A stretch of 64,000 nt of DNA, from assembly GCF_032050975.1 (NCBI RefSeq), contig NZ_CP116967.1:1919001-1983000 (forward strand), given 5' to 3'. The position numbers were made by a program, and so were the translations under genes. Below, piece by piece: positions 40,937 through 57,887 of this stretch (the first letter of the stretch is position 1; each line of letters begins with the position of its first letter). This stretch comes from Candidatus Nitrospira allomarina. GTDB taxonomy: Bacteria > Nitrospirota > Nitrospiria > Nitrospirales > UBA8639. A model generated the notes under the pieces. It was not told where the DNA came from. It did no database searches and saw nothing but the letters and a program-made list of their open reading frames with translations.

Positions 40937-41275
40937 TTAAGAGAAACAGGACAAGAGAATGTGTGGGGGAGCTCTGGCAGACTTACTCGAAAGAAAAGGG
41001 AGTGAACCGGACAGGGAATAGAGAGAAAGCACAGCCCCCAATTCCTGTAATGGCGAATGCCACGATGGGGAGGTGGTCAGGGAGGTTGACGAAAGCTTTC
41101 CGATGTGACAAGCCCAGTTGCAGAAAACCCCATGCAGAGGTTTCGTATTGGTGTGATGGGATTCTGGAGTGTCATGAGAGAGGTCCTGCACGGCCATGCA
41201 GGCCGTGGATGCCAGGAGCATGGCGAGAAAAAGGCTTGATGTCAGAAGAGCAATCGGTTGAAGCCGCTGGTGCAT
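40937..41275 (-). CDS. Small CxxxC/RAPP membrane protein, paralogue 1
   Basis: 112 residues: signal/TM segment (about 7-28), some His (SHDTPESHHTNTKPLHG), the motif C52-NWA-C56, a second hydrophobic stretch (about 78-95), and RAPP at 101-104 followed by HILLSCFS. The ATG is directly adjacent to the stop of the TlpA gene, and receptor 1 follows 184 bp later, so it belongs to that operon. One of five such proteins in the window (others at 47972, 48842, 52145, 57594). CxxxC near His suggests metal or redox chemistry (inference); the C-terminal RAPP recalls DUF2946 but I cannot confirm membership. Confidence 0.7.
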   Translation of the reverse strand: MHQRLQPIALLTSSLFLAMLLASTACMAVQDLSHDTPESHHTNTKPLHGVFCNWACHIGKLSSTSLTTSPSWHSPLQELGAVLSLYSLSGSLPFLSSKSARAPPHILLSCFS

Positions 41276-41797
41276 TTACTTCGGGTTGAGGAGGTTGTGG
41301 ATGTACGCCAGGGATTCAGGGCTATCCCATTCTCTGGGCCCCATGATTCGTTGGCTCAGATGTCCGTGAGTATCCACAATCACCGTTGTGGGAAGATTTC
41401 TGACCATGAGCGCTTGAGAAAGTTCTTCCTGTTCATCCAAGAGGACATCGAAATGTAAATTGAGTTTCTGCCAAAATATTTTGATTTCTCGTGGAGGAAT
41501 ATCAGTGGTAACCGCCAGTATGGCCAATTGGTCTGGAGGGAATTTTTGACGAAGACGTTCTAACGAGGGCATTTCTTCCTTACAAGGGCCACACCAGGTG
41601 GCCCAAAAATTCAAGATGAAGACTCGTCCTTTCAACTCATTCGAATGAATAGATGTGCCTTGCAGGGTGCGGAGCTGGAATGGAGGAAGGGTTTGGGCGG
41701 TATTGAATCGGCTAAGTGTGTACGGGGAAGAAGAGGGATTTCCCAAAGCCAGAGCCATTCCCAGGACTCCTGAAGCCAGCAGAGAAAGCGGTGTCAT
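41276..41797 (-). CDS. TlpA/ResA-like thioredoxin
   Basis: About 173 residues, membrane-anchored or secreted by its N-terminal hydrophobic stretch (MTPLSLLASGVLGMALALG). The thioredoxin active site is ILNFWATWCGPCKEEMPSLE, and the cis-Pro lies in RNLPTTVIVD. TlpA-type proteins reduce periplasmic disulfides, for example in cytochrome maturation or copper chaperones. The start at 41797 overlaps the stop of the upstream Asp-box gene by ATGA, so the genes are coupled. The small CxxxC protein immediately downstream is a plausible substrate (inference). Confidence 0.9.
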   Translation of the reverse strand: MTPLSLLASGVLGMALALGNPSSSPYTLSRFNTAQTLPPFQLRTLQGTSIHSNELKGRVFILNFWATWCGPCKEEMPSLERLRQKFPPDQLAILAVTTDIPPREIKIFWQKLNLHFDVLLDEQEELSQALMVRNLPTTVIVDTHGHLSQRIMGPREWDSPESLAYIHNLLNPK

Positions 41798-43083
41798 GGT
41801 TTTGGGTGTAATTGAGCCGTCCGCGGAGTGGGAAAAGAAAGAGGCTGGATTACCGTACTCCAACCCGGAAAAACTACTTGCTCCGACCAGGCAATGACGG
41901 CTTGTCCCTGGTCATTTAATGCCACGGCCGGACTCTTGGCTTTTTTCTCATTTAACTTTTTCGGGGGACTAAATGTCTGTCCCCGATCGAGGGAATAAGT
42001 GAACACAATTTCCCGCCGCACCGGGGATTGCTCCTCCCAGGATACGAGTAGATGGCCTTCTCGATTCACTGCCAGTTGAGGATGATCCGGAAACGTGCCT
42101 TTGGACATGTTCAACACACGTCGAGGCGTAAAGGTTTTCCCCTGATCATCGGAATAGGCTAAATACACACCGGGAGTATCATCAGGGCCTTCCGTATACC
42201 AGGTGACATAGAGGCGCCCTTGCTGATCGACTCCCATGGTGGCGGGACGATGGGGACAGCCCTCGTAGACCCATTGATCATTGCCCACGATGACCGGGGG
42301 AGAAAACGATTTCCCGTTATCGGTGGAACGAGACACGACGGTTTCCCTGACCGCACCGGCCAAGACCTTGCGCCAGGCCAGATAGACATTGCCATCAGAG
42401 GCAGTAGTCATATGGGTCCGGCAACAGACACAACTGGACTCGTCAATTTTCAGGTTTGGTGAAAGGGTTCTGCCCTGATCTTGGGAAAAGACCGTGTAGG
42501 TGGCCGGATCTTTCTTCCCTTCCCGGGCATCAAGCCAGGAGATATGGACGGAACCATTGGGACTGACCGTCAAATGATCAAAGGAATGGCCGGTGACGGC
42601 GTCGTCGTCGTTGACTCGAACAGGAGGAAGAAAGGTTTTCCCCCCATCAAGTGACCGGCTCAGGAGAAGAAGATTGGTAAATAATTTACCGCCGGCATTG
42701 GGGTGAGGTGTTGTCCAGGTGATGTACACATCGTTTTTGTGGCCTAATGCCAAGGCCGGTGGTTCGTGGAGGGACGTGGCGGGAGGACTGGATGGATTGA
42801 CTCTGATGGGTTCCGGGTACTGTTCCTGTGGAGGTGGGACCTTGAGATAATAGACTCCTCGATCTTCCTGCTTTTCTCCGCCCCAGGCAAGGTGAAGGGT
42901 CCCGTCTTTATCCAGTTGAGCGGCTGGGCCGGTGGTTTGCATGCCTTGATGGTCGATGACGTGTTTAGCCCCCGCCTGAACAATCGAAACAGATGGATCC
43001 GCCCCGAGGACTCCTGATATATCACCGCCCAGGCCCATCGAGAGAATTAGAGAAATGGTTCCAAAAAGTACAGGTCTTATCAT
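41794..43083 (-). CDS. Secreted Asp-box (sialidase-like) beta-propeller protein with CxCC motif
   Basis: About 429 residues with a signal peptide (MIRPVLFGTISLILSMGLG) and at least five Asp-box/BNR repeats (SLDGGKTF, SQDQGRTL, STDNGKSF, SDDQGKTF, SLDRGQTF), indicating a six-bladed propeller. Sialidase catalytic residues are not evident, so glycan cleavage should not be assumed. Near the middle is ESSCVCCRTHMTTASDGNVY, a Cys-rich CxCC motif unusual in propellers. The start at 43083 has GTGGAGGC upstream. First gene of the operon with TlpA, small protein 1 and receptor 1. Confidence 0.8.
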   Translation of the reverse strand: MIRPVLFGTISLILSMGLGGDISGVLGADPSVSIVQAGAKHVIDHQGMQTTGPAAQLDKDGTLHLAWGGEKQEDRGVYYLKVPPPQEQYPEPIRVNPSSPPATSLHEPPALALGHKNDVYITWTTPHPNAGGKLFTNLLLLSRSLDGGKTFLPPVRVNDDDAVTGHSFDHLTVSPNGSVHISWLDAREGKKDPATYTVFSQDQGRTLSPNLKIDESSCVCCRTHMTTASDGNVYLAWRKVLAGAVRETVVSRSTDNGKSFSPPVIVGNDQWVYEGCPHRPATMGVDQQGRLYVTWYTEGPDDTPGVYLAYSDDQGKTFTPRRVLNMSKGTFPDHPQLAVNREGHLLVSWEEQSPVRREIVFTYSLDRGQTFSPPKKLNEKKAKSPAVALNDQGQAVIAWSEQVVFPGWSTVIQPLSFPTPRTAQLHPKP

Positions 43084-43481
43084 GGGTGCCTCCACGGATA
43101 TTCGAATGTAGAAAGAAGACAAACGTTCATAATTCCAAAATGTGAGAGTGTGTAGTTTTACCAGAAGAGGGAAAGTCTATGCTACTTTAAGGATGTGGAG
43201 TGTGGGTCGTATACGCACCGGATGCATATCGATACTACAGTTTGTTTGTTAAATGAAAGATTTCGAACCATTCAATCAACATTTCTGGAAAACATCACTG
43301 AGTGATGTACTTCATTTCATATTTCACAAGGCTCAGCCTATGGGGAAGTAAAGGAACTTGGCGAATGACCAGTTCTTCGATAAGCAGTATGGATGCCAGG
43401 AAAAATGATTGTCCAAGAGATCGAGCCTCATGGGGAGAAAAAATGGAAAATCTGTATATGAATTTTGGAATAAAAAGTCAG

Positions 43482-43580
43482 GGTGAAGGCCAAGGAGGTT
43501 GCAAGTCCAAATGCCTTCACCCTGGAGTGGAGCGGGGTAGGTCAGGGATGAGTTACGCCGCTCCGGGTTCCGCTGGAAGA
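43482..43580. repeat. Structured ~100-bp element, copy A
   Basis: Starts AGGGTGAAGGCCAAGGAGGT and closes a hairpin with CCTTCACCCT at 43510-43525. A second hairpin GAGCGG/CCGCTC follows. The sequence matches copy B at 46464-46570 along most of its length, including the later TACGCCG and TTCCGC blocks. On the minus strand, TTTTTA follows the first hairpin. Confidence 0.55.
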
Positions 43581-43826
43581 GTGCAATGATCTCTCAACTT
43601 CAAGGAAAAATGTATCCGATCCGGTGAAATTGTTCTACCGATCCCTACTGATCGCTGCAACAGCCGGGAATATTCCTGGTAAACATGTTCAGAAACTTTG
43701 GAATAGTTCCACACTCAGAACCGGCCCGAGAAAACTGCTTGTCAATGTCTTCCTGCCTTTCCAATCTTTCGTAAGTCCATGTCAGTGGCTCTTTCTGGTA
43801 TTCGAAAAAACATTGCGTGAAAAACT

Positions 43827-43916
43827 AATGGTGCAACCATTGGTAGGCGAAAGCGTGGTTCGGTAGCGAGCCTTTCGAACACAGGATATATTCCTGCATG
43901 GTGGTTCGAAAGTTTT
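43827..43916 (+). ncRNA. Candidate structured leader (5' UTR) upstream of 43956
   Basis: Consecutive stems lie on the plus strand: AATGGT-GCA-ACCATT; GC-GAAA-GC inside an AACCA/TGGTT pairing; GGTTCG-GTAG-CGAGCC; and CTTTCGAAC...GTTCGAAAG (43872-43912) with an inner CAGGA/TCCTG, followed by TTTT. Alternative pairing between the AACCA and TGGTT parts is possible. It ends about 40 bp before the start codon, as in attenuators or riboswitches. No known riboswitch class was recognised. Confidence 0.4.
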
Positions 43917-43955
43917 ACATCCTTGTTCACCTTCACTAAAGAGGAGGATTCGTGT

Positions 43956-44612
43956 ATGCCGTGCACGCAAGTTGGTAAATGGTATGGAGTGGGCTCGGGA
44001 ATGTGTGTCTTGATGGCAATGGGATGGTTGATGCAATCGGTTGCCATGGCCAATCCTCATGAGCCAAGAGAGGTCGGGCCCTATACCTTGGCCGTCGGAT
44101 TTAGGATCGAACCGGCATTTGAAGATGTCGTCAACGCTCTTGATTTTTTTGTGACCCGAACATCAGACGGAAAGCCTATCAGCGTGAGTAACGGAGACGT
44201 GGTGGATATTGAAGCGGAGGTCCAGTTTCGAAAGGAAGAAAGCGTGGGTTCCGCAATCATTCAGGAGCATCGACTTGCCAAACCCGAGCAGGCTTTCGGA
44301 GCCGACAATCGGTACAATGCCTGGTTTAAACCCACGATCGACGGGGCATATGGTTTCAGGGTCAGGGGGGAGATCAATGATCTCAGCGACCCGCAAGCCG
44401 GGCCACTTTTTTTTGATGAGGTATGGGTATGCGGATCCGGAACGCAAAATCCCCAAGGCAGCCGGTTTGCCTGTGTAGCAGATCCGCAGACATTCCCCAA
44501 AGGTATTCTTGATCATCGAGGCATAGATCACCATGGGTATCAGGACGATGATAGAAATAAATTTTTCAGGGAAGGGGGGTCGCGTAGACACGGATTTCGC
44601 GATCGAGACTGA
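43956..44612 (+). CDS. Periplasmic protein of unknown function
   Basis: About 218 residues. Signal peptide (CVLMAMGWLMQSVAMA within the first 35 residues), then a mainly beta domain (about 35-165) with YTLAVGFRIEPAFEDVVNAL, NRYNAWFKPTIDGAYGF and VRGEINDLSDP. A C-terminal part has two Cys (WVCGSG and FACVAD) and ends with a charged His/Asp/Arg-rich tail. GAGGAGGA lies eight bases before the ATG at 43956, better than the earlier in-frame start at 43923. I recall similar proteins in Nitrospirota but know no function. Confidence 0.7.
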   Translation: MPCTQVGKWYGVGSGMCVLMAMGWLMQSVAMANPHEPREVGPYTLAVGFRIEPAFEDVVNALDFFVTRTSDGKPISVSNGDVVDIEAEVQFRKEESVGSAIIQEHRLAKPEQAFGADNRYNAWFKPTIDGAYGFRVRGEINDLSDPQAGPLFFDEVWVCGSGTQNPQGSRFACVADPQTFPKGILDHRGIDHHGYQDDDRNKFFREGGSRRHGFRDRD

Positions 44613-44651
44613 GAACCATCATTGGCATTTCGTCATGGACTCCGGTGACGG

Positions 44652-44679
44652 GGGAGAACTCGCGTATGCGTGTTCTCCC
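44652..44679. terminator. Bidirectional hairpin between convergent genes
   Basis: Stem GGGAGAAC/GTTCTCCC around TCGCGTATGCGT, with an inner CGC/GCG pairing. It lies between the 43956 gene (+) and the BamE-like pseudogene (-). There is no strong T-run on either side, so termination may be weak. Confidence 0.5.
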
Positions 44680-45095
44680 TCATCGTGGTTCGGAAGGGTG
44701 TCTTATTGGGGGAAGCGATGATGACGCTCTCTGTAAAATTCTTTCCCGAATTTCTGTGACGAGGCCATTCTGATCGAAGATAATCCCCACTTCTGTGGTT
44801 TGGCGGTGAGGACGGGTAATCGGAACTTGCGTGACCCTGATGGGCGCCCGGTATGAAGATTATGAACTGTGTCGTGAGTAAATAGGTCCACTTTGTACAA
44901 TTCCTCTCATTCTCAAAGACAATAATTTTTTCCTTTGGTTCTCCAAGGTGATTCCGCACGTGTTGGGTTGTCGTCCCAATGGTTAACCGAGCAAGCTGCT
45001 CGGGAGTGCATATGGCTATCCGTTCCACAACCTCTTAGGACTACACTCAGAAGCAGAAAAGCAGAGATCCATCCCGGTCTCCCGGCGAATGTCAC
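44680..45095 (-). pseudogene. Frameshifted BamE/SmpA-like lipoprotein
   Basis: Three pieces in different frames line up as one lipoprotein. First, a signal with lipobox (GWISAFLLLSVVLRGC) from a GTG near 45095. Second, ICTPEQLARLTIGTTTQHV and RNHLGEPKEKIIV...WTYLLTTQFIIF, which is the BamE/SmpA-type pattern (G-T-x-x-x-V...LG-x-P...W-x-Y). Third, APIRVTQVPITRPHRQTTEV and GIIFDQNGLVTEIRERI to the stop at 44680. Shifts fall near 45010-45025 and near 44840-44850. Two indels in 400 bp imply decay rather than one sequencing error, though errors are possible. Confidence 0.65.
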
Positions 45096-45269
45096 TATGT
45101 TACGAACCGTTATCCCATGGGCACACAATCCTGCAAATGGCTCGGGATCATGTTGCCCCAAAGGGTTGATGCGGTGGATCGGTAATTTCCGGAGTCGGGA
45201 ATGTTTGGGTACAGGGAAGGCCGACAACAGAGGCTTGATGAGATGGAGGCGAGGGCAAAGCCGGATCGT

Positions 45270-46157
45270 TTATTCCTGCCAATCGAATCCGGAGGCCCGT
45301 GCCAATTCTTGCGGGGTCTTGAGGCCGGTTAAACGGCGGTCACCGATAATCCACGTGGGGTAGCTTTTAATGTCAGCCTTGACGCAGGGAGCGGTGAGAG
45401 CGCTTCCTCGTCCTCCAGAACTGCATTCCACATAAGGAAGCCGCTTGGCGGACGAGAGAAATTCGGCTTTTTGTTCCTGGCAGCGTGGGCACCAATAGGC
45501 ACCGTAAAACTTGGCACCGGTTTCATTGAGGTGGATGGCTAAGGCTTGAAGTTGGGGATCTTCCGGGCCGGCGGCTGCGTCGAACACCCCGCTATAATGC
45601 AAATGAAGCCCGCCGACGAGGACAAGGCCGATCACGACTGCCTCTTTGAGGGATTTCGTCCAATCGGGAGGCCGTCGAGCGAGAGCCAGGCCAAGGATAA
45701 TCGTGATGATGGCAAATGAAGTCAGGCAATATGGACAGGTGGCTTCGATTTCTACGACCGAGATGATGGTCAAATAGGCGCTAACCGCGAATCCGCTCAT
45801 AGCCACGTAAATCAACACCGATCCGCTACCGGATTTTCCACGGCCTAACCAGGCGAGCCCGGCGATCACCACATAGGTCACGAAGCCCCACAAGGCCATG
45901 GGGATTCCCAGAAAGGTGGCCCATCGGCTGCTCTGCACAATGTCGCAGCCCGAGCCCTCGCTGCAAAATGCCGGATGAACCTCGAACGAGGCCATATAGG
46001 TCAGGTAAGCGGTTAATACTAGTCCGGCGCCGGCCAGAATAATGATGAGAAGGTCGAGTAGGGCTTTCGAACCTGAGAACATGGAAGACGGAGCGTTAGA
46101 TGGCTTTCTTGCTGTTTCAGGGCCGACTGATTGTGTCTGTCGTTTGGATTTTGCCAT
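45270..46157 (-). CDS. VKOR-family oxidoreductase fused to a thioredoxin-like domain
   Basis: About 295 residues. Four to five membrane helices form the vitamin-K-epoxide-reductase domain, with the conserved loop Cys pair (HPAFCSEGSGCDIVQSS) and the active-site TCPYCL pair. The C-terminal periplasmic thioredoxin-like domain carries YWCPRC and VKADIKSYPTWII. Such fusions form disulfide bonds in secreted proteins, replacing DsbA/DsbB. The start at 46157 (MAKSKRQ) is preferred; the frame extends to 46220. It lies in the TonB/small-CxxxC region, whose products have Cys pairs that could be substrates (inference). Confidence 0.92.
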   Translation of the reverse strand: MAKSKRQTQSVGPETARKPSNAPSSMFSGSKALLDLLIIILAGAGLVLTAYLTYMASFEVHPAFCSEGSGCDIVQSSRWATFLGIPMALWGFVTYVVIAGLAWLGRGKSGSGSVLIYVAMSGFAVSAYLTIISVVEIEATCPYCLTSFAIITIILGLALARRPPDWTKSLKEAVVIGLVLVGGLHLHYSGVFDAAAGPEDPQLQALAIHLNETGAKFYGAYWCPRCQEQKAEFLSSAKRLPYVECSSGGRGSALTAPCVKADIKSYPTWIIGDRRLTGLKTPQELARASGFDWQE

Positions 46158-46548
46158 GGCGTGCCTCGGGCACGAGTGTATCATGGGCTTCTTGCCATTG
46201 AAATCCCGACAATCAATCAAATACTCCCGAACTAGCGGAGACTTTTGCCAAGGTCATGTCAGGCCGGTATTCCTCACGATGGATTGCTGATCACAGAATC
46301 AAAACTCCAAACGGCTTGTTGCTTCAAGGTTCGGCGTAAGATAAGGGATTTGGAGGTCTTTTAGGAATCTTGAGGCCCTATGCCGAAACTATGTGCCGCG
46401 GAATGTATTTGGGCGCTGTTGTCCTGTGTTGAGGAAGGAAGAGATGAGGTGCGCATAGAAGTAGGGTGAAGGCCTAGGAGGCTGCAGGTGCGCAAACCAC
46501 CTTCACCCTACTCGTCCAAGGTAGGAGGCCGGTCCGTCCCTGGATGTT
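46158..46548. other. Intergenic region with copy B of the hairpin element
   Basis: About 390 bp between the VKOR gene and the P460-like fragment, both minus. The right part holds the structured repeat starting at 46464. I see no gene. Confidence 0.45.
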
Positions 46549-46570
46549 CTACGCCGATGTGTTCCGCCCG
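46464..46570. repeat. Structured ~100-bp element, copy B
   Basis: AGGGTGAAGGCCTAGGAGGC and CCACCTTCACCCT form the same long hairpin as copy A at 43482. Downstream GGTAGG and TACGCCG blocks also match. The right end overlaps the 3' end of the P460-like frame. Confidence 0.55.
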
Positions 46571-46866
46571 TAACCCGGAATATTCATCATACCGGTCGGC
46601 TTTTTTTTGGCGTTGTGGATTTCCATCACGAGAATGCTGCCATTGGCAAACGGGTGGCCCGCTCCTGCGCTTGCCCCGGTGGGGTTGATATAGAGGTCGC
46701 GGATAGCGTCCGATTTCTGAATCCCGTGGAGAAAGGCGGCATAGGATTTGTAAGCGGCCGGAAAGACTAATTCCCCGTCTTTCGGTGTGGAGCCGGATTG
46801 TGCCGCAATTGGCATGTTGGTGGATACACACCCTAGAACCACCAAAGCCGGAAACGTGATACTCAT
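46549..46866 (-). pseudogene. Truncated cytochrome P460-like protein
   Basis: About 105 residues. The signal region (SITFPALVVLGCVSTNMPIA) is followed by the front of a P460 fold: FPAAYKSYAAFLHGIQKSDA, DLYINPTGASAGAGHPFANG and SILVMEIHNAKKK. P460 proteins normally continue with another 50 or more residues ending in a haem CxxCH, which is absent here. Just before the break is a homopolymer of eight (46601-46608); a one-base insertion would extend the frame by about 20 residues but still without CxxCH. GGAGAGA precedes the ATG at 46866. It may also be a short non-haem relative. Confidence 0.5.
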
Positions 46867-47069: not shown

Positions 47070-47816
47070 TTAGGGATATTCCGAAGGCACATAAAAGTTT
47101 AATGGGTTCATCGCCTGATAACTGACGTTTGTGCCCATTCCCGCATCGGGATCGATAAATCCATCGGCCATACCGGTTTCATGCCAGGTGAATGCAAACG
47201 ATGCCGTGGGATCGCTATTGAATTGATAAACCCGCTGGGCGAATGTCCGCCTGGCCGCTTCAATCCGGTCAATTTCCTCGTCAGTACCGTATACGACAAA
47301 TGGTGGATACGGACGGCAGGTATCGATGGCCGCGTAAAAGACCTGACGGAGGTGCAAAAATGTATTAAGAGCGGCATTTCCCATTTGTTGTTGAGGTTCG
47401 GGGAGTGAGGCCATAAACTTGCTCCGCGCAATTCCTTCGGGGTGTTCTGTTGTAAAGATCACGGCATAATTTCGATCAAAGGCAATCGCGCCTTGGTTGA
47501 CGACTCCGTCGGTTAAATCCTGCATTCTGATGAAATGGACATACTGTTTGATTCTGGCTTCACTCGACTGAGAAGGCACAAATTGTCCGGGAACCCGGCG
47601 AATGACGAGATCCCGATATTTTGCCACTTGAATCCTGATGGATTTGTCGTGGCCGCTGCTTTGACAGAGGGCCGGGCTGAAGGGGCGTGGATCTAATCGA
47701 AGGGGAAGTATGTCCTGATTATTCGCGAACCCATAGCCTGGAATGACCATGAGAAGGACGATCAAAAGTATAAAACGGAAGGGGAATCGGGAAAAGTTAA
47801 CGTAACCATACCACAT
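47070..47816 (-). CDS. Secreted hypothetical protein
   Basis: About 248 residues with a signal peptide (FILLIVLLMVIPGYGFA, cleavage near residue 32). The mature protein looks globular, with SIRIQVAKYRDLVIRRVPGQ and CRPYPPFVVYGTDEEIDRIE. Two Cys (ALCQSS and DTCRPY) could form a disulfide. The start at 47816 follows TTGGAGGC by about nine bases; an upstream ATG at 47894 gives a less plausible N-terminus. Not recognised. It lies in the small-CxxxC cluster. Confidence 0.65.
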   Translation of the reverse strand: MWYGYVNFSRFPFRFILLIVLLMVIPGYGFANNQDILPLRLDPRPFSPALCQSSGHDKSIRIQVAKYRDLVIRRVPGQFVPSQSSEARIKQYVHFIRMQDLTDGVVNQGAIAFDRNYAVIFTTEHPEGIARSKFMASLPEPQQQMGNAALNTFLHLRQVFYAAIDTCRPYPPFVVYGTDEEIDRIEAARRTFAQRVYQFNSDPTASFAFTWHETGMADGFIDPDAGMGTNVSYQAMNPLNFYVPSEYP

Positions 47817-48283: not shown

Positions 48284-48394
48284 CGTGGTCTATGGTTTCA
48301 GCATCAATGTCGATGATCTCTCTCGTCAGGCTAGCTGTTCCTTTGCAAAGTGTCTACGGACGAGTACTCATCGATGCAACATTTCACTTCATGC

Positions 48395-48601
48395 TCATTG
48401 ACATTCCGTAATAGCGAACTCCCAATGGTCTTTTCGATTTTGTTGAATCAACGTATCAATAGAATCCCGAAAAATTCGTAAGCTGCCTTTCCCAATTTTT
48501 GTCGCCTTCAGGCGATCTTCTTCAACCCATCGGTAGATAGTCCATCGGCTGACATTTAAGGTTTGAGCGGCTTCACCGACACGCAAGAGTTGTTTGTCCA
48601 T
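48395..48601 (-). CDS. Small helix-turn-helix protein (excisionase/MerR-like, HTH_17)
   Basis: About 68 residues: LLRVGEAAQTLNVSRWTIYR and WVEEDRLKATKIGKGSLRIF are the classic winged helix-turn-helix of excisionase-type proteins. No integrase or phage gene is nearby, so it is more likely a local regulator than an excisionase. AAGGAGA lies just before the ATG at 48601. It sits between two of the small CxxxC genes (48842 upstream, 48283 downstream). Confidence 0.85.
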   Translation of the reverse strand: MDKQLLRVGEAAQTLNVSRWTIYRWVEEDRLKATKIGKGSLRIFRDSIDTLIQQNRKDHWEFAITECQ

Positions 48602-48841
48602 GGTTCTCCTTCCGCAGCATATATGCTGTGTCATATGATTAACGTTAGGTGTTCGTGTCCGGTTGTTGACAGAGGAGACCGGCACGAAATGTTTTCAATC
48701 GGGTTGAGCGTGGTTTCTTCTGGAGCGCCAGACAACAAATTAATGGGGAATGGAGATCATTCAAGCATCAACCATTCTGCTCACGACGAAACGCTGCTCT
48801 TGAGATAAGGGTTCAGAGATGGATTGGTTGAGAGTCCCAAT

Positions 48842-49218: not shown

Positions 49219-49629
49219 TTAGGGTTCCGAATTGGGTTTTGTGGCAATTGCCATGTTGGGAATGCCGGCCAATCGAATGATATCCATGACCTTAATGACC
49301 TGACCGTGGGGGACCTGTTCATCGGCGTTAATGACGACCGAGGGGTCCGAGTCGGTTTGCCGAAGGCTTGTCAGCCGGATTTCCAGTTCCGAGAGTGCAA
49401 TACGGTCCTTATTGTAATACAGCGTTCCTTCATGGGTCAGTGTGAGGGAGATTTGATCGGGAACCTTATCCGTTGCCGAGTCGGCGGTCGGTAAATTGAC
49501 CGGCATCCCATGTTGAATGGTCATGGACAATGTCGCGATCATAAAGAACACCAAGAGAAAGAACATCGTGTCGATCATCGGAATGATTTCGATGCGGGCT
49601 TTCTTCTGTGTGACGGTAGATAGTCTCAT
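49219..49629 (-). CDS. exbD: Biopolymer transport protein ExbD
   Basis: 136 residues with a cytoplasmic N-terminus, a single membrane helix containing the essential Asp (IIPMIDTMFFLLVFFMIATL) and a periplasmic domain with SVVINADEQVPHGQVIKVMD. Works with ExbB and TonB to power outer-membrane receptors. exbB and tonB lie about 5 kb upstream, separated by an amidohydrolase, a small CxxxC gene and receptor 2, an unusual split arrangement. TolR is an alternative, but the neighbours favour ExbD. Confidence 0.9.
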   Translation of the reverse strand: MRLSTVTQKKARIEIIPMIDTMFFLLVFFMIATLSMTIQHGMPVNLPTADSATDKVPDQISLTLTHEGTLYYNKDRIALSELEIRLTSLRQTDSDPSVVINADEQVPHGQVIKVMDIIRLAGIPNMAIATKPNSEP

Positions 49630-49809: not shown

Positions 49810-52032
49810 TTAATTGAATTTCCATTCGATTCCCCCAAACCCGCTGATTCCCTGACCTGGGTTGAAATACCGGCCCAGACTGTCATTAACGACGACAGCA
49901 CCCGCATAGGTTTGATCGGACAGGTTTCGTCCCTCTGCGAAAATGGACAGGTTTTTACTGTAATTATAACCTGCCTTCAAATTGACGATGAAATAGGCCG
50001 AGTTCTTGGCCGTGTTTAAGCTGTCCACGTAATAGCCGGCGATGATCCATTCAAAATTCGGCGCGATAAAAAACCCCGCCGGATGGTCATAACGTATTTC
50101 TCCGGCAAGTTGGTGTTCGGGCGCACCGGGAACCCGATTGCCGTCTTTGGCCACCAAGAATTTTTGGGTTCCATTTTCTCCTCCTCCGTACACGTCATCT
50201 GTGAATTTAAATAACGACCACGTATAGGCGGTTCGAACGGTGATCGTGTCGCTTTGGTTTTTCGGACCCTGAGCTAGCAGCCCGTTGGCCACCACCATGC
50301 TGCCTCCCGCTTCAATGCCTGTGTGTCGCGTCCCTTTGGCATTTTGATAGGTCGGTTGGTTATTGACATTAAACGTCAGAATTTCCTTTTGCATTTCCAG
50401 GTTATAGAAGGTGAGGTCCCAGGTATAGCGGTTATCCGCCGTGCTGCCTCGTGTACCGATTTCAAACTGCCAGGCCCGTTGCGCATCCAGGTTGATGAAG
50501 GGGCTGGTGGGGACGGAACCGTCGGGGTTGATCGATGAGGTCAATTCAACATTGATGGGGGGTTCGTACCCACGGCTGACGTTTCCGTAAATTTGCGATG
50601 TCGGGGTGGTTTGGTACACGAGCCCCATCTTTGGGATAAGAGCATTGAAATGACGTACACCGGTATCGCTGGTACTTAAATCTCCCGTAAAGGGACTGAA
50701 AAGTTGGTTTCTGCCCTGCCGGATGCTGTATTCCCAGCGTCCGCCTGCAATAACAAGGAGATCATCGGTTACATTGAATTGGTCTTCCAGGTAGGTGCTG
50801 AGATTAGTCGTCTCCAATGTGAGATTTTGGGTCTGAATCCCGCGTTTGCCTAAATTATTGACAAAACGCCGTTGATTCGTGTCCCCGTATCGTGGCTGAT
50901 TGCCAATGAGGAACTTGTTTTCATGCCCGAAAATAGGATGTGAATTGACGTATCGAATTTCCCCTCCCACATTATAGTTGTCCTGGACGATCGTTTGAAA
51001 AATAGGATGATCCAGGTACTGGTAGGAATAATAGGGGATAATTTCAAAAAACTGGTTGGCGGCGAATTCGTTGCGATAGGCGGCCCCGACCCGGATATAA
51101 CTATAGTACCGCCCCCATTTACAGGGCTCGTTTGGACCGCAGGAAAATGGACTGATTCCCCCCAAGGTGTTGGCCTGTCTTCGATTGGAATCCAATTGCG
51201 CTTGGGTGATCGACCCGGGGAGGGCTTCTGACACCTCGGCTCCCAGGATATAGGCGCGCACTTCCTGGTGATCGCCGATCTGAAATCCGAAGTTGGCATT
51301 TAACCGTCCGCGTGCTTGTTGGCTGTTATCCTGGAAGCCGTCCTGATGATTGCCCGACGCGCTGATATAGTAATCGGCTGTGGTGTCCATGGTGCCGACC
51401 TTAAATGGTTTGGTCACCTGCCCGCTGGAGACTTGCCCCGAATAGAGGCCGAAACTTCCAGCCATTCCACGCGTCTGGAAGAGGGAGGCGTTGTAGCCCG
51501 TCCGGGGCACAAAATTGATGGCTCCTCCCAGGGTATTGGCTCCATACCGGAGGGCGTTGGACCCTTTATATACCTCGATACGTTCATAGGCCATCAAGTC
51601 GATGGATTCGAAATCGGAGAACCCGTCCGCATCGCCGAAATAGATCCCGTTGATGAGAATATTAATACCGCGATGATGAAAGTTGTTCCTGAGGGAAGTC
51701 CCCCGAATTTGGAATTGGCCCTCGTCGGCGCCGAATCGGGATTGGAATCGCACACCCGGGGCAAATTGAAGGACGTCGGTTAAATTAAACGCACGGGATT
51801 CCTCGATTTCCTTTTCCGGGATCAGGATGGTGCTGGCAGGCCGACGAGCCAGCTCTTCCTTGACCGCATCGATGTTCTCGATCCGTGTTCCTTCCACGGT
51901 GAGTGTCGGCAGTGTTTCAATTTGCTCGTCAGCCCTGCTGAATGGAGGTTGGATCAGAAAAAACCCCGTCAACGTAAAAATCATCACGCTTATGATTACA
52001 TTGGAAAATATCACACATTTGTGGTTGTTCAT
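49810..52032 (-). CDS. TonB-dependent outer-membrane receptor 2
   Basis: A 740-residue receptor: signal peptide (to about SRADEQ), a TonB-box region ETLPTLTVEGTR, a plug with VLQFAPGVRFQSRFGADEG and VYKGSNALRYGANTLGGAIN, and a barrel ending GGIEWKFN with terminal aromatic residues. A short loop CGPNEPC near residue 300 could be disulfide-bonded. It resembles siderophore and metal-chelate receptors in general; the substrate is unknown. Neighbours are small proteins 4 (upstream) and ExbD plus small protein 3 (downstream). Confidence 0.92.
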   Translation of the reverse strand: MNNHKCVIFSNVIISVMIFTLTGFFLIQPPFSRADEQIETLPTLTVEGTRIENIDAVKEELARRPASTILIPEKEIEESRAFNLTDVLQFAPGVRFQSRFGADEGQFQIRGTSLRNNFHHRGINILINGIYFGDADGFSDFESIDLMAYERIEVYKGSNALRYGANTLGGAINFVPRTGYNASLFQTRGMAGSFGLYSGQVSSGQVTKPFKVGTMDTTADYYISASGNHQDGFQDNSQQARGRLNANFGFQIGDHQEVRAYILGAEVSEALPGSITQAQLDSNRRQANTLGGISPFSCGPNEPCKWGRYYSYIRVGAAYRNEFAANQFFEIIPYYSYQYLDHPIFQTIVQDNYNVGGEIRYVNSHPIFGHENKFLIGNQPRYGDTNQRRFVNNLGKRGIQTQNLTLETTNLSTYLEDQFNVTDDLLVIAGGRWEYSIRQGRNQLFSPFTGDLSTSDTGVRHFNALIPKMGLVYQTTPTSQIYGNVSRGYEPPINVELTSSINPDGSVPTSPFINLDAQRAWQFEIGTRGSTADNRYTWDLTFYNLEMQKEILTFNVNNQPTYQNAKGTRHTGIEAGGSMVVANGLLAQGPKNQSDTITVRTAYTWSLFKFTDDVYGGGENGTQKFLVAKDGNRVPGAPEHQLAGEIRYDHPAGFFIAPNFEWIIAGYYVDSLNTAKNSAYFIVNLKAGYNYSKNLSIFAEGRNLSDQTYAGAVVVNDSLGRYFNPGQGISGFGGIEWKFN

Positions 52033-52144
52033 CGGAGCATAAATCCTTTCCGGAACCTATGGAAATAGATCAAGATCAGAGCAAACAAAGGCCTGGCCCT
52101 GATGGAGAAAAAATATGGATTGGTTCTGAAACGCGGGACTTTGG

Positions 52145-52489
52145 TTAAACGGGAGGGCCGCGAGCGAGAGTCGGACTCAGGGTCGCCTGCATCGGGATTC
52201 TGAAAAAGAGGTAGACGACTCCGACAATAAATAGGGTGAGGGTAAGAAGTGCCTTGTGGGTCGTGTCGGACGAGTTCGCTTTCGAACTGACCTGACAGGC
52301 CCATGAGCAGAGCGAGGAATGGGAACTGGTGTTTTTGGAATGATGATTAATTGGAGAATGGTGGAGCTCATGAGATGCCACGCAATACGTGGCTATGCTC
52401 ACCAACGCGAGATACACCACTGCGAAGATGATTGAAAGGAGTTTAAGGGGGCGCGGCATTATGGGAAGGCTCGATAGCTTGTCAGGCAT
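52145..52489 (-). CDS. Small CxxxC/RGPP membrane protein, paralogue 4
   Basis: 114 residues: first TM (about 15-37), His-rich ASHELHHSPINHHSKNTSSH, C61-SWA-C65, second TM (about 78-98), and the extreme C-terminus RGPPV at 110-114. Cys-to-Arg spacing is 45. The start may be the internal Met at residue 11. It lies 112 bp upstream of receptor 2 and 60 bp downstream of the amidohydrolase. Confidence 0.72.
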   Translation of the reverse strand: MPDKLSSLPIMPRPLKLLSIIFAVVYLALVSIATYCVASHELHHSPINHHSKNTSSHSSLCSWACQVSSKANSSDTTHKALLTLTLFIVGVVYLFFRIPMQATLSPTLARGPPV

Positions 52490-52549
52490 GTTGAAGCTTG
52501 TATGTCTTGTGCCTTAAAAAATCCTGGTTATCTCAGAAGGAGTCGAAGG

Positions 52550-54043
52550 TTAATGCGCATGTTTGCCTGTGGCATCTGCATTCTGAGTTTCGCTCCATGA
52601 AAGAGGGAAACCTTGCTTGAGACGAAAGATAATGTTTTGAACCTGTTTGAAGTCCTCAAGCGGATTGCCCTGTAAGACAAGAAAACTGGCTTCGTATCCC
52701 TCGTCTAACCGTCCAATTTTCCTGGAAGGGAAAATCGTCTGAGGAGTGGTCTCACTCCACATTTTCAGTAAGGTCAGGTTGTCAAATATTCCCATCTGAT
52801 GTAGGTGAAGCGCCTCCGCGAGGGCTGTTTCCGCATGGTCGCTCCCGATGGCAATGGTGACGCCTGCCTGACGCAATAGTTTGAGATTTTCCACCTGAAT
52901 TTCCGTAGCAACAGTAAGAACATTTTCCACTGGTTGTTGTATATGCTCTTTGGAGCTTGCCAGAGAATGGAGATGCGTTTCCGTCTTGGTATGATGTCCC
53001 GCCGGATGAAAGTGCTCTGCGACGGTCGTCGTGATGATCACGGTCCGGTGTGCGGCCGCGAGTTGGGCATCCTCTTGAGTTAACAGCACGGCTGATCGTT
53101 GAGTGGGTGAAGGGAGAAACCACCCTGGAAGATGGGCGATCTCATCGACTTGCCCCTGGATGGCTGCCCGAAAGTCAGCGGCTGTTTCAATATGTGCGGA
53201 AACTCGCAACCCTTCCTGGTGAGCATGCGCGACAATCTGGGCGATGAGCTGAGGATCCAGCCCTTTTCGAAACCCATGCGTAACCGAGTGAGGTTCGTTT
53301 CCGAAATGTTCTGAGTCGGCAAGATACAGCTTCAGGAAGTCCGGATTGGTGGCCATGATCGTCGGCCACTGCTCCTTGAAATCTTTCAGTGTAGAGATAG
53401 GGAAGTAGGCTCGACCGTTGAACCAACCCTCTTCACGTTTACCAATGACCGGTTCATATCGATGGATGCGAAGCATGTTTTCGTAAAGATCGATGGGATG
53501 ACCGTTAGGCCCGGTGAGGCCGGCATGAGCAAAAACGACATCAATGGTCGTTGGTGTGTTGAGTTTACCGCGGATTTGTTCCACAAATTCGGAAATGGCA
53601 TTTGGATTTTTCACATAAAAAATACCATCCCGCACATAATGATTGATGACCTGGTCGATGTTCCAGGCGCCTTCGACATTATGTGTGTGGGCTTCACCAA
53701 ACGGCGGCACGACAAAACCGCCCTTCAGATCGATGGTCTGTTCAACAGAATTGGGCCGCAAACGGGTAAGTGAGCCCTGCACGGCATACCAGGTGTCCTG
53801 AGTGAAGCCTTGCCCATCAAACCATTGCCCATTGATAAAGGCATAGGTTTTGGCCGTATTCCTGTCGTGTACTGATTCGAAACTTGGAGTTGGTGGAGGA
53901 TGAGTGGTCGTGCTGCATCCCACCAATCCTAGTCCAACAATGAGGAACAGGGTAGTCATGTACAACATGGCATGAGTCGCCTGTTTTCTTAGATCCCATT
54001 GTCTTTCAGCCTCAACGATTGCGCCTCGATTGGTTTCAGGCAT
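52550..54043 (-). CDS. Amidohydrolase-family lipoprotein
   Basis: About 497 residues. A signal (MLYMTTLFLIVGLGLVGC, with lipobox) indicates a lipid-anchored periplasmic enzyme. Metal-site features of the amidohydrolase superfamily are visible: FGEAHTHN (HxH), KLYLADSEHF (possible carbamylated Lys), VSAHIETAAD, EIAHLPGW and IAIGSDHAET (catalytic Asp). The substrate is unknown; cyclic amides or peptides are usual for the family. The start is uncertain (54043, or 53968 next to the signal). It lies between exbB and small protein 4. Confidence 0.82.
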   Translation of the reverse strand: MPETNRGAIVEAERQWDLRKQATHAMLYMTTLFLIVGLGLVGCSTTTHPPPTPSFESVHDRNTAKTYAFINGQWFDGQGFTQDTWYAVQGSLTRLRPNSVEQTIDLKGGFVVPPFGEAHTHNVEGAWNIDQVINHYVRDGIFYVKNPNAISEFVEQIRGKLNTPTTIDVVFAHAGLTGPNGHPIDLYENMLRIHRYEPVIGKREEGWFNGRAYFPISTLKDFKEQWPTIMATNPDFLKLYLADSEHFGNEPHSVTHGFRKGLDPQLIAQIVAHAHQEGLRVSAHIETAADFRAAIQGQVDEIAHLPGWFLPSPTQRSAVLLTQEDAQLAAAHRTVIITTTVAEHFHPAGHHTKTETHLHSLASSKEHIQQPVENVLTVATEIQVENLKLLRQAGVTIAIGSDHAETALAEALHLHQMGIFDNLTLLKMWSETTPQTIFPSRKIGRLDEGYEASFLVLQGNPLEDFKQVQNIIFRLKQGFPLSWSETQNADATGKHAH

Positions 54044-54134
54044 GGTAATTGAGTGAACCTTCCGGTGGATGACCGCGATCCTGCTGCGTTGTTGTCCTGG
54101 GCTTTCATGACGGCACGTATTCTGAAGACGGGAA

Positions 54135-54722
54135 TTAGGAATGTCCCAGAAACGACTGGAGTTTTGTGGCATATTGTTCAATACGCTCGGTTTCACGTTC
54201 GACCAGGGAAAGAAATAAGTTGTAAGGAATGAGTGTAATGACGGCAACCCCAATTCCTGCCGCGGTGCAAATGAGTGCTTCGGCCACTCCCCCTGTGACC
54301 GCGTGGGGATTGCCGAGCCCTGTTTTGGACATGATGCCGAATGAATCGATCATTCCAATGATTGTCCCCAGTAGTCCCAGTAAGGGTCCCAACGTGATGA
54401 CCGTATCTAGAACGGATAACCCGCGCTTTAATCGAGAGATCTCGGCGATTCCCGTAGCTTCCATGGCTTTGTCAGGCTGTTGGTCTCGATGGAATATCCC
54501 TGCCGCAAGCACGCGGAGTGTGGGGCTCTGACGTTGTTCAGCCAAGGACAGCGCATCGGTCCATTTTCCCTGTTCAACCAGTTTGATCATCCGGTCCCCC
54601 AAGCGGCTAAACCGCAACGATCGGAATTGGAATCCACGTTCGATGCTGATGGTCAGAGCTAACAATGAGCAGCCTAAGATGGGGATCATCATCCATCCGC
54701 CACCCATTAGTAATTGAATCAT
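54135..54722 (-). CDS. exbB: Biopolymer transport protein ExbB (MotA/TolQ/ExbB family)
   Basis: 195 residues with three membrane helices (about 5-27, 105-130, 145-172) and the family signature LDTVITLGPLLGLLGTIIGM and GVAEALICTAAGIGVAV. Forms the proton-conducting complex with ExbD that energises TonB. It starts 27 bp after tonB, so tonB-exbB are an operon; its ExbD partner is at 49219. Confidence 0.92.
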   Translation of the reverse strand: MIQLLMGGGWMMIPILGCSLLALTISIERGFQFRSLRFSRLGDRMIKLVEQGKWTDALSLAEQRQSPTLRVLAAGIFHRDQQPDKAMEATGIAEISRLKRGLSVLDTVITLGPLLGLLGTIIGMIDSFGIMSKTGLGNPHAVTGGVAEALICTAAGIGVAVITLIPYNLFLSLVERETERIEQYATKLQSFLGHS

Positions 54723-54749
54723 GCCTCGGTTCCCTTCTTTTTGCGTGGC

Positions 54750-55640
54750 TTAACTATTCAGGTCAAATTTAATCGGGATGTCTACCCATTTGGCGATGGG
54801 GATGTTCCCGTCTTTGGCTGGCAGAAATTTCCAGTTTTTAATGGCTTCTTGGGCAGCCAGATCTAGAGCTTCATGACCGCAGCTCTTTCGAATTTCTACC
54901 TGGCTCGGAGCGCCATCGGCGGTAATCAACGTTCGGACAATAACCGTACCCTCCCAACCAGACTCACGCGCCACACGGGGATACAATGGCTTGGATGAGG
55001 CCACGATTTTCGGCTTGGAAGTTGAGGTTCCGGCCGCCATTGGCGGCGGAGTTTTTAATGCGGGACGAGCCGCCGGGCTTGGCGGAGGCGGCAGTGTGTG
55101 TTGGGTTCTTGGTTCGCGATTGTTCATTGGTAAGGGAGTTCTGGCAGTGGGTTGTTCCTGCTGTGGCGGCGCTGTTGAAAGCGGAGGCCTTTGTTGGTGT
55201 TGAGAAGGCACGGCCATTTTCATCATTTGACGACTCTTCATGGCCTGCTCCGTTCGCGTGTCTTTGAGCATCGGCTGTGCCTGAGGAAGAGGCGGCGGAG
55301 GAGTCAGAGGTTTGGATGGGGTCTGTTTGATCGATGCCTGCATCGGTGGCGCAGGCTTGGGCGGGGTAGGTTCGGTCAGGGGGGGCGGTGGCGTTGGCCT
55401 TGCACGTGGTGTGATTGGCGTGAGGGGTTTCGTGATCGGTTGTGGGGTGGGACTGATCTCTTGAATAGCCGGAACCAAAGTCACCTGAACCGTGGGGGCG
55501 GGGTCATCCAATGCCGGAGGACTTGGAATATAGGCCAGGGCTGCAAGAACGGCCGCATGAAGAATGGCGCTGCCCAGAGCGCTCAGTAGGAAAACCCGAT
55601 TGTTCACATTAGAAGAGGAATCTTCAAACGTGGAGTTCAC
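54750..55640 (-). CDS. tonB: Energy transducer TonB
   Basis: 296 residues: a cytoplasmic start, one membrane anchor (LLSALGSAILHAAVLAALAY, about 18-38), a long Pro-rich periplasmic spacer (about 45-215, many TPPPP units) and the C-terminal TonB domain with LYPRVARESGWEGTVIVR and WKFLPAKDG. Starts with GTG at 55640, overlapping the stop of the TPR gene by GTGA. Confidence 0.93.
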   Translation of the reverse strand: MNSTFEDSSSNVNNRVFLLSALGSAILHAAVLAALAYIPSPPALDDPAPTVQVTLVPAIQEISPTPQPITKPLTPITPRARPTPPPPLTEPTPPKPAPPMQASIKQTPSKPLTPPPPLPQAQPMLKDTRTEQAMKSRQMMKMAVPSQHQQRPPLSTAPPQQEQPTARTPLPMNNREPRTQHTLPPPPSPAARPALKTPPPMAAGTSTSKPKIVASSKPLYPRVARESGWEGTVIVRTLITADGAPSQVEIRKSCGHEALDLAAQEAIKNWKFLPAKDGNIPIAKWVDIPIKFDLNS

Positions 55641-56689
55641 GATTTGCTCCGTTGTAATAATGTTTGAATTCGTTCGTCCTGTCCCCCAAGCTTCAAGAAT
55701 TCTTCGTAGTGTTTGAGAGCTTTTTGCGGAGTATTGCGATGAAACTCATATAACATGCCAAGATTATAGTGGGCTTCGGCCAACTGATCATTCAAGGACA
55801 AGGCTGTTTGATATTCCTTCTCTGCTTGATCAATTTTTGATAAGGCTGCATAGACGACTCCCAGATTGACGTGCGCCTCCGAATTGTTGGGATCAAGTTT
55901 CGTGACTTGTTCAAACGCTTGCGCCGCTTCCTTGAAGGCTTCCTTTTGCTGGTAAAGAATGCCTAGGTTGAAATAGGCGCTGACTAAATCATGGTTTAAT
56001 TTGACGGCGTGTTGGTAGGCCTGAATGGCGTTGTCCACGTGGTCAGATTGTTGAGCGAGTGATCCGGCCATTAACCATCCATTGACATACGTGGGATGGA
56101 GGGAGACCAGTTGGTCGACGTAACGTTGGGCTTCATCAGGCTTTTGTTCCTGGGCCAGCCAAAAGGCGATGCCGTATAACGAATCGACGCGATGTGGCTG
56201 GAGTTCCAAGACGGCCTGATGGGCCTTGATGGCCTGCTGCGCTTGTTGTTGGTGATCATAAAAGGCTGCCAACGCGATGCGGGCCTCCGCAAACTTGGGA
56301 TAGGCCTTTAAGGCAAGATTGAATGATTGCTCGGCTTTTGGGAATTGGGCCTGTTGCTGGTAAATAGAACCGAGATCCACATAGGCTTGAGCAAATTGGG
56401 GATAGGCCTCCACCGCCCGTTGCAACTCCATGATGGCCTTGGCAGGCTGATCAAGATTACTGAAGATTAATCCTAACAGATGGTGCGCTTCAGCGTATCC
56501 CGGGTACAAGGTCAGCGCGCGCTCTAAGGGGCCAATGGCCGCAGTCCATTGTTGGTTTTCATAGGAGGAAAAGGCCTGAGCCAGAAGGTCATGGGCTTCT
56601 CCAGCCTGACTTGAGGGGCTGCCCATGCCGATATGGGTGAGGAAAAGAAAAACCGCGATGAGTCTGAGTTTTTGGAAAAGAGTTATCAT
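55637..56689 (-). CDS. Periplasmic TPR protein, paralogue of 36168-37244
   Basis: 350 residues: a signal peptide (LIAVFLFLTHIGMGSPSSQA) and about nine tetratricopeptide repeats (LLAQAFSSYENQQWTAAIGP, LVSAYFNLGILYQQKEAFKE). The C-terminus HYEEFLKLGGQDERIQTLL matches the TPR protein near receptor 1. Translational overlap with tonB indicates a direct role with the TonB system, perhaps as a periplasmic scaffold (inference). Confidence 0.82.
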   Translation of the reverse strand: MITLFQKLRLIAVFLFLTHIGMGSPSSQAGEAHDLLAQAFSSYENQQWTAAIGPLERALTLYPGYAEAHHLLGLIFSNLDQPAKAIMELQRAVEAYPQFAQAYVDLGSIYQQQAQFPKAEQSFNLALKAYPKFAEARIALAAFYDHQQQAQQAIKAHQAVLELQPHRVDSLYGIAFWLAQEQKPDEAQRYVDQLVSLHPTYVNGWLMAGSLAQQSDHVDNAIQAYQHAVKLNHDLVSAYFNLGILYQQKEAFKEAAQAFEQVTKLDPNNSEAHVNLGVVYAALSKIDQAEKEYQTALSLNDQLAEAHYNLGMLYEFHRNTPQKALKHYEEFLKLGGQDERIQTLLQRSKS

Positions 56690-56726
56690 GGGCTGACCTT
56701 GTTAATAGTGGCAATATTCCACAGGT

Positions 56727-57314
56727 TTATTGAAGCAAATCAAATCGAATGGGTAAATCCACGGTGGACGCAACTGCGAATTCTCCATTTTTTGCTGGTT
56801 CAAATAACCAGCTTTTTACCGATTGCACGGCACTCTCATCCAGGAGAGAAAATCCCGAACTTTCTTGAACCGTGGCATTCTTGACTATGCCATCGGCGGT
56901 TATCTGCGTTCGTAGCACCACCTTCCCCTGCCAGCCCTGCTCCCTGGCCATTCTCGGATAGAGAGGACGTTCGGTTTTCAGGGGCTTGACACTTGTCTTT
57001 CGCCCGCGTGTTGTACCAATCTGGTCCAGGAGAATACGTGGCATAGGCGGCTGTGGCAGGTCGACGAAATGGAGATCGGGAACAGCATGGTGGTAAAAGG
57101 TCGTGGTTGGCCATGAGGGTTCGAAAGAGGGCAGAGGAAATGAATAGGTTATACTGGCTTTCGTCACCGTTGCCCCAGTCACTTCAATGACCTCTAGTGT
57201 TTCTATAGGTTCTGAGGTTTCAGGTGGGTTTCCTGCCAAAGAAATTGGGTTGGAGGTCAGCGTGCACCAGAGAAATAAAAAAATATAGAACATCATATTG
57301 TGCCGACGTACCAT
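56727..57314 (-). CDS. Secreted TonB C-terminal-domain protein
   Basis: About 195 residues with a signal-like N-terminus (MMFYIFLFLWCTLTSNPISL), possibly cleaved, then a TonB-box-like ETLEVIEVTGATV stretch and a TonB C-terminal domain (PLYPRMAREQGWQGKVVLRT, VKSWLFEPAKNG). It lacks the long Pro-rich spacer of the neighbouring TonB. The ETLEVIEVTGA segment looks like a receptor TonB box, an odd combination. It is 37 bp upstream of the TPR gene. Possible regulator or accessory of TonB. Confidence 0.75.
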   Translation of the reverse strand: MVRRHNMMFYIFLFLWCTLTSNPISLAGNPPETSEPIETLEVIEVTGATVTKASITYSFPLPSFEPSWPTTTFYHHAVPDLHFVDLPQPPMPRILLDQIGTTRGRKTSVKPLKTERPLYPRMAREQGWQGKVVLRTQITADGIVKNATVQESSGFSLLDESAVQSVKSWLFEPAKNGEFAVASTVDLPIRFDLLQ

Positions 57315-57406
57315 TAGACCTCTTCCTCTTAAGTAACTTGACGACTGGTCGTGTTGCCTTATATCCACAGTTTATCTTTTTATTGTTTCGGGTATCGGCA
57401 TATCGA

Positions 57407-57435
57407 GAAAAAACCCGGCCAGCGTTTTTGCCGGT
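57407..57435 (-). terminator. Rho-independent terminator (minus strand)
   Basis: Read on the minus strand: CCGGC-(10)-GCCGG, then G and six Ts (57408-57413 are As on the plus strand). It lies downstream of small protein 5 (57594) and upstream of the TonB-domain gene, separating them. Confidence 0.75.
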
Positions 57436-57593
57436 AAAAAAATCACTCTCCCCTTAAGAAGTTTCCCTCTCGTTCGGTCTCTCCTGATCAGGAAGATATA
57501 CGTAGCCACCTTCTCTGATCGCGCTCTGGGGAACCGTTCTCCAACTCCACTGGCTTTGGTGAAAACGGTTTAGGAGACAAACTTAATCTGATT

Positions 57594-57887
57594 TTACCGG
57601 GGTGGAGCTCTGGTTGTAAGAAAATGAGTGGAAACGAGAGAAGGGACTGAAGGAAATGGCCATTCAATGATGGTAAGGAGTTGAAAACTGGGGGAAATAT
57701 CCAGGTGGTTTCCCGAAATGGTTTGTGCCGCAGCGCACATCCAGGAGCAGACTCCAGTACTGTGGGTTGTGGGTGTGTGATGATGGGTATGGTCCGTAAT
57801 ATGCGAAGCGTAGGTCCGATGCATGCTCCCCATGATGAGGAAGAGCATCAGAATAAAAACTATGGTCAGACTTTTTCGATAGGTCAT
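57594..57887 (-). CDS. Small CxxxC/RAPP membrane protein, paralogue 5
   Basis: 97 residues: signal/TM (about 5-22), His-rich ASHITDHTHHHTPTTHS, C47-SWM-C51, moderately hydrophobic middle, and the extreme C-terminus RAPPR at 93-97. Cys-to-Arg spacing is 42. It is the most upstream of the five, has its own terminator, and is divergent from secA. No good ribosome-binding site is visible before the ATG. Confidence 0.7.
   Translation of the reverse strand: MTYRKSLTIVFILMLFLIMGSMHRTYASHITDHTHHHTPTTHSTGVCSWMCAAAQTISGNHLDISPSFQLLTIIEWPFPSVPSLVSTHFLTTRAPPR

Follow-up and report, generated by a model that had tools for sequence, protein, structure and literature searches.

Five candidate metal-sensing arrest leaders in a TonB locus of Candidatus Nitrospira allomarina

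CruR (Bp2923) of Bordetella pertussis is a DUF2946 protein that acts as a copper-responsive upstream open reading frame (uORF) before the TonB receptor gene bfrG/crtA (PMC9426467). Its RAPP motif is required for expression and its CXXC motif for copper control; 45 residues intervene between the two, a spacing that is conserved within one or two residues and needed for regulation, and the signal peptide is dispensable (PMC9426467). Copper brings about Rho-dependent termination in the 162 nucleotide (nt) gap that follows; the Rho-utilization (rut) site lies inside a bubble of C over G that runs from the second half of the uORF into the gap (PMC9426467). CutF of Rhodobacter capsulatus, the uORF of the multicopper oxidase gene cutO, combines a signal peptide with CxxxC, which is followed after 45 residues by a proline motif (PMC9973294). 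R[AG]PP itself is a ribosome arrest motif (PMC10951233, PMC12992588). Cryo-electron microscopy shows how peptide bond formation is prevented when RAP occupies the P site and proline the A site (PMC10951233). Strong arrest by RAPP and RGPP has been reported in several contexts, together with an in vitro stall of CruR in which one of the two prolines sits in the P site and the other in the A site (PMC12992588). A survey in the same paper places RAPP/RGPP uORFs of many phyla ahead of genes related to TonB or copper, which form target classes across Gram-negative bacteria. Here we analyse a stretch of 64,000 nt from Candidatus Nitrospira allomarina (assembly GCF_032050975.1, contig NZ_CP116967.1, positions 1,919,001 to 1,983,000 of the forward strand; 'the window' below), in which five small open reading frames (ORFs) are spread through a TonB locus. 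We consider it highly probable that they are cis-acting, metal-sensing nascent-chain arrest uORFs of the CruR/CutF kind, one per target gene. In window coordinates, the five leaders are as follows.

P1, 40937-41275, minus strand: 112 residues, RAPP, second Cys to Arg 45; begins at the very first base past the tlpA stop codon.
P2, 47972-48283, minus strand: 103 residues, RAPP, second Cys to Arg 42; 111 nt past a helix-turn-helix (HTH) gene.
P3, 48842-49204, minus strand: 120 residues, RGPP, second Cys to Arg 45; 14 nt past exbD.
P4, 52145-52489, minus strand: 114 residues, RGPP, second Cys to Arg 45; 60 nt past an amidohydrolase gene.
P5, 57594-57887, minus strand: 97 residues, RAPP plus one residue, second Cys to Arg 42; heads a gene run, upstream of tonB.

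A first-pass annotation made from the letters of this DNA had described the five as paralogous membrane proteins of 97-120 residues, and its coordinates, strand, lengths and Cys to Arg distances were all reproduced. Most of the common plan that it had drawn up also held. Each protein has a hydrophobic N-terminus (Kyte-Doolittle maxima over 15 residues of 2.2-2.8 in 5/5; signal peptides were judged by hydrophobicity alone), a His-rich stretch (3 to 7 His per 30 residues), C-[SN]-W-[AM]-C and a C-terminal R[AG]PP, with the PP 2 to 10 residues from the end. The second hydrophobic part that it had listed is strong in P3 and P4 and weak in the other three. Aligning the five leaves L17, H41, C52, W54, C56, R101, P103 and P104 invariant. 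The residues that intervene between the second Cys and the Arg number 44 in three leaders and 41 in two; measured from the first Cys, the Arg lies 49, 46, 49, 49 and 46 residues on in P1 to P5, and 49 is the CruR value. These features support the earlier proposal of a probable metal site formed by His and CxxxC. No confident family match was obtained for the five in Pfam or NCBIfam, nor any SCO1/SenC domain match. The ratio of non-synonymous to synonymous substitution was 0.14-0.57 in the five orthologue groups, as under purifying selection; the frames are therefore translated and selected.

A profile search of the organism's own 4.55-Mb genome returned a sixth copy (1245127-1245423, E 4e-10), which precedes the gene of an outer-membrane-type protein. 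Relatives of the locus named by a scan with receptor 2 (see below) are Nitrospirales metagenome-assembled genomes. Among 60 relatives (Nitrospirales), homologues are present in 57, and in all 41 of good quality (at least 90% complete, at most 5% contamination). The five belong to one paralogous family, as had been claimed, and the relatives that a profile was expected to find are widespread. Across the phylum the family occurs in 99/246 genomes, nearly all of the same order or class and one outside the class, with up to 12 copies per surveyed genome. We found no description of this Nitrospirales family in the open-access library searched.

Conservation within the family is narrow. Only C52, C56, R101, P103 and P104 are the same in all of 46 diverse members; M1 and W54 are kept in at least 90%. 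R[AG]PP ends 162 of 177 unique members, R[PS]PP is found in 11, and four, some of them cut by contig ends, have neither. The second Cys to Arg distance is 42-45 in all 165 members that have CxxxC, and R[AG]PP falls within 1-11 residues of the stop. To avoid circularity, a hidden Markov model (HMM) was built without the C-terminal columns and used at E<1e-3; it returned 87 homologues, 86 of them with R[AG]PP among their final 20 residues and the other with RPPP. R[AG]PP was so placed in only 89 of 3032 mechanical open frames of 60-200 residues at the same loci, nearly all of them family members. Since only the metal site and R[AG]PP near the stop are fixed, the proteins look like sensors equipped with an arrest peptide and unlike enzymes or carriers. 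Some more distant Nitrospirota leaders (among L096-L101, L107, L111, L128 and L129) end in RPPP or RSPP, and in some the second Cys is missing (for example CAWLDH); these possibly answer to other types of ligand.

Each of the five ORFs lies directly upstream of a gene on the same strand, its putative target, a central point that is absent from the first-pass annotation.

TonB-dependent receptor 1, 38438-40753, minus strand: GTG start with AAGGAG; putative target of P1, gap 183 nt.
P274, 47070-47816, minus strand: 248 residues, ATG at 47816 with GGAGG; putative target of P2, gap 155 nt.
HTH_17 protein, 48395-48601, minus strand: 68 residues, ATG at 48601 with AAGGAG; putative target of P3, gap 240 nt.
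TonB-dependent receptor 2, 49810-52032, minus strand: closest solved relative PqqU/YncD; putative target of P4, gap 112 nt.
tonB-like gene (TonB_C), 56727-57314, minus strand: putative target of P5, gap 279 nt.

The arrangement recurs throughout the family: in 167/173 cases the gene that follows a leader shares its strand, and the gap has a median of 171 nt (quartiles 120 and 236). In a first set the figure was 56/59 for leaders against 288/362 for ordinary neighbours. Genes were called with a simple codon-usage caller, and individual start sites may be off. A strong ribosome-binding site precedes 14% of leaders and 72% of targets, a comparison biased by a caller that rewards good sites and useful as a hint only. 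The 115 distinct downstream proteins comprise 21 TonB receptors, 10 TonB_C proteins, 19 outer-membrane proteins of the Phenol_MetA_deg type, 15 TlpA/AhpC-TSA proteins (14 members also matching SCO1/SenC), eight HTH_17 proteins, three HMA proteins and two small metal-binding proteins, among others. The whole genome of the organism encodes six plug-domain receptors and four TonB_C proteins, of which leaders precede two and one. The association with TonB genes for which the first-pass annotation had proposed a check is far above chance, and it reaches other envelope and metal genes as well.

Leaders and targets have been inherited together. When downstream genes are mapped by kind on a leader tree (60 leaders), the kind changes 11 times, against 37.8 for shuffled labels and with none of 200 shuffles as low. 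Two deep groups separate the leaders of tonB, P274 and TlpA genes from those of receptor and HTH genes; in the window the former have the spacing of 42 and the latter that of 45. P274 is preceded by its own leader type in 12/12 cases, and these leaders form one group in the tree; pairing with HTH_17 is seen in 12 leaders. Leaders that act in cis should be paired with their targets in this fixed way, and the coupling is partly owed to orthologous synteny.

Several observations concern the targets themselves. P274 has no Pfam or NCBIfam match, and its AlphaFold model (predicted local distance difference test score 70) gave no credible fold match in the PDB. Receptor 1 has an extra N-terminal coiled-coil-like stretch ahead of its plug. 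A copper receptor identity for receptors 1 and 2 was rejected, there being no OprC or CrtA signal. A conserved palindrome-like CAGCATA..TGCTG stands just before the ribosome-binding site of the HTH_17 gene (48395-48640 region, minus strand) and could be this protein's own operator.

The base composition of the leader ends sets them apart from other genes. C minus G is +0.23 across the final 90 nt of leaders; for other genes the value is 0.00. When the terminal 150 nt are taken, the excess of C over G has p ~2e-29, and p 1e-7 at third codon positions alone, values that overstate independence since the leaders are mutually related. The bubble is strongest over those final 90 nt and fades within the first ~70 nt of the gap. 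A rho gene is present in the genome. No match was obtained in Rfam, and neither promoter-like sites nor intrinsic terminators in the region were more numerous than in shuffles. One terminator-like GC hairpin followed by a T run lies in the P5-tonB gap (57405-57434, minus strand) and is not clearly kept in all relatives.

The best-surviving alternative is control in the manner of CutF, in which metal would prolong the stall, the ribosome would open a stem-loop that hides the ribosome-binding site, and the target would be turned on. CutF shares the CxxxC (PMC9973294), the start regions of the targets are partly paired in predicted folds, and five close relatives retain a hairpin just past P3, with an alifold z of -5.8 relative to shuffled columns. 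That hairpin lies ~200 nt from the target start, however, and its covariation amounts to a single two-sided change, a score reached by 213/500 shuffles; we do not claim it. Across gaps of 112-279 nt, a ribosome stalled where the leader ends could not extend to the ribosome-binding site of the target. When the five gaps were folded as free and as stalled RNA, pairing at that site changed little or inconsistently; the folds gave no consistent switch of the CutF type, and hiding of the site was set aside. The C over G bubble in turn indicates Rho. Because of the long gaps, the missing fold switch, the bubble and the presence of rho, the Rho-dependent CruR-like version is preferred, and we regard the CutF version as unlikely.

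Placement, intergenic gaps, tree and base composition all agree with the reading as arrest leaders. The motifs and their fixed spacing, selection on the frames, same-strand placement, co-inheritance, the bubble and rho were seen directly; the course of events outlined next borrows its direction of regulation and its Rho step from CruR. Each leader would be translated from a weak start site and its N-terminus engaged by the Sec system. The ribosome would stall once R-A/G-P occupies the P site and the final proline the A site, as is known for this motif elsewhere. At that moment the His-rich/CxWxC site, 42-45 residues back, would just have cleared the exit tunnel and could bind a soft metal, most likely copper, to judge from the analogy with CruR and CutF and from the His/Cys site. 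Metal binding would release the stall, as in CruR, and the ribosome would depart; Rho could then load on the bare, C-rich leader end and halt transcription before the target gene. Without metal, the stalled ribosome would shield the RNA and the target (receptor, tonB or other) would be made.

The same leaders might instead sense Sec or redox state, by export or by a disulfide in the CxxxC pair, in the way of SecM or VemP. RAPP arrest peptides of sec and yidC genes do answer to export (PMC10951233, PMC10987492), such a disulfide is possible, a TlpA-family gene comes next in 15/115 cases, and P5 is divergent from secA. On the other hand the His-rich stretch is conserved, the targets are of metal-import and metal-binding types and not Sec genes, secA is not downstream of this leader, and CruR works without its signal peptide (PMC9426467). 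We judge this explanation quite improbable. The function proposed by the first-pass annotation, mature metal-binding or redox membrane peptides that assist TonB import in trans, is probably wrong and has very little chance of holding: the signal/TM-like N-terminus, His-rich stretch and CxxxC suit it, as do the TlpA and VKOR-type redox proteins among the neighbours, but it leaves R[AG]PP, the fixed spacing, the link of one paralogue to one target, the long gaps and the bubble unexplained, and with almost nothing conserved beyond the metal site and arrest motif, and no SCO1 or other domain match, a redox or Sco-type effector was rejected.

Several observations weigh against metal-sensing arrest leaders of the CruR kind. 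The Cys to Arg spacing is three residues shorter in two of the leaders than in the other three. Four of the five are internal to gene runs (P1 at 0, P3 at 14, P4 at 60 and P2 at 111 nt from the preceding gene), whereas cruR genes head operons (single copy, three-gene operon). CruR has CXXC where the window's leaders have CxWxC. Both receptors match PqqU/YncD best and not the copper receptors CrtA or OprC. The excess of C is partly due to His, Pro, Leu and Ser codons. Finally, none of the window's five matches the DUF2946 HMM, even at E 10. The first-pass annotation had seen a resemblance to DUF2946, and for the family this stands weakly: 16 of the 46 diverse members match PF11162, reaching the last profile position in those inspected, and the best (L061:13572-13919) scores 23.7 bits, exactly the Pfam cut-off. 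Across 118 genomes no DUF2946 hit passes the cut-off, and the hits in Nitrospirales fall on several leaders. Plasmids searched with the family member that lies nearest to DUF2946 gave no match.

If the five are indeed metal-sensing arrest leaders, the locus may form a ladder of serial, operon-internal sensors. Duplicated leaders would stand before each functional block of a long TonB run; every leader would evolve together with the target it controls and be tuned through its Cys to Arg spacing (42-43 or 45), so that one metal would produce a graded or ordered shut-off; in the Nitrospirales, with up to 12 per genome, leaders might even be a main regulatory layer that works without a separate transcription factor. 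We offer this extension tentatively and consider it doubtful as a whole.

What had been a guess about metal peptides becomes a mechanism of gene control that is open to test. It extends CruR/CutF-type sensing to the Nitrospirales, nitrite oxidisers that are widespread in the environment (PMC10579370), and does so in a form that appears nearly universal and is multiplied. With the array, five natural versions of a single sensor in one locus, linked to tonB, two receptors, an HTH protein and P274, can be compared to learn how sensitivity depends on spacing, on His content and on the choice between RAPP and RGPP. For organisms that offer few genetic tools, the reading also points to targets predicted to respond to metal.

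The TonB-system surroundings were as the first-pass annotation had described them. Besides the targets they include the following features.

exbD, 49219-49629, minus strand: upstream of P3.
exbB, 54135-54722, minus strand: within the P5 gene run.
Second tonB, 54750-55640, minus strand: within the P5 gene run.
TlpA-like thioredoxin, 41276-41863, minus strand: upstream of P1.
Promoter-like site TTGACA-18-TAGCAT, 57938-57967, minus strand: upstream of P5; 10/12 consensus bases, a consensus match only.

P5 alone follows a divergent gene, secA (58173-60893, plus strand), which is not downstream of P5 and keeps this place in several relatives. On the opposite strand, an ORF at 43923-44612 (plus strand) encodes 229 residues with a signal-like start and no family; together with a gene-poor stretch it divides the run into ~57887-45270 and 43122-38438. 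Upstream of tlpA, 41794-43122 (minus strand) encodes a secreted BNR-repeat (sialidase-like) protein with a C-V-C-C motif.

Of the described systems, CruR is like the leaders reported here in being a small protein (exported in CruR, putatively so here) with a Cys pair, RAPP about 45 residues on, a long gap, a C over G bubble and a TonB receptor downstream. The statement of the first-pass annotation that the function of DUF2946 is also unknown does not hold, since CruR belongs to that family (PMC9426467). Its target CrtA comes with PepSY, whereas the receptors here are PqqU-like, with their own TonB-ExbB-ExbD and five leaders per locus. CutF shares CxxxC, a Sec signal (putative in the leaders), a C-terminal proline motif 45 residues later and cis control of the next gene. 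It differs in having a proline-rich motif in place of R[AG]PP, a short-range stem-loop over the cutO ribosome-binding site, induction by copper and an oxidase as target. Of the properties by which CutF-like proteins were filtered (PMC9973294), all five leaders have fewer than 150 residues, PP in the last 15 and a same-strand gene within 1000 nt; for a further one, an N-terminal signal peptide, they show a hydrophobic N-terminus. ApdA/ApdP and the uORFs of the RAPP/RGPP survey (PMC10951233, PMC12992588) have the same tetrapeptide close to the C-terminus of a small exported protein with a same-strand gene downstream; the Apd peptides, in contrast, monitor Sec/YidC and have no metal site. The accessible portions of the survey (PMC12992588) do not describe the Nitrospirales family, serial arrays, or HTH_17, TonB_C and P274 targets. 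The five leaders probably work like CruR and CutF and are probably homologous to them, yet by HMM test are not members of DUF2946. The principle is already published; the new element is a family that has diversified, reaches nearly the whole order and places paralogous leaders in series within a single locus.

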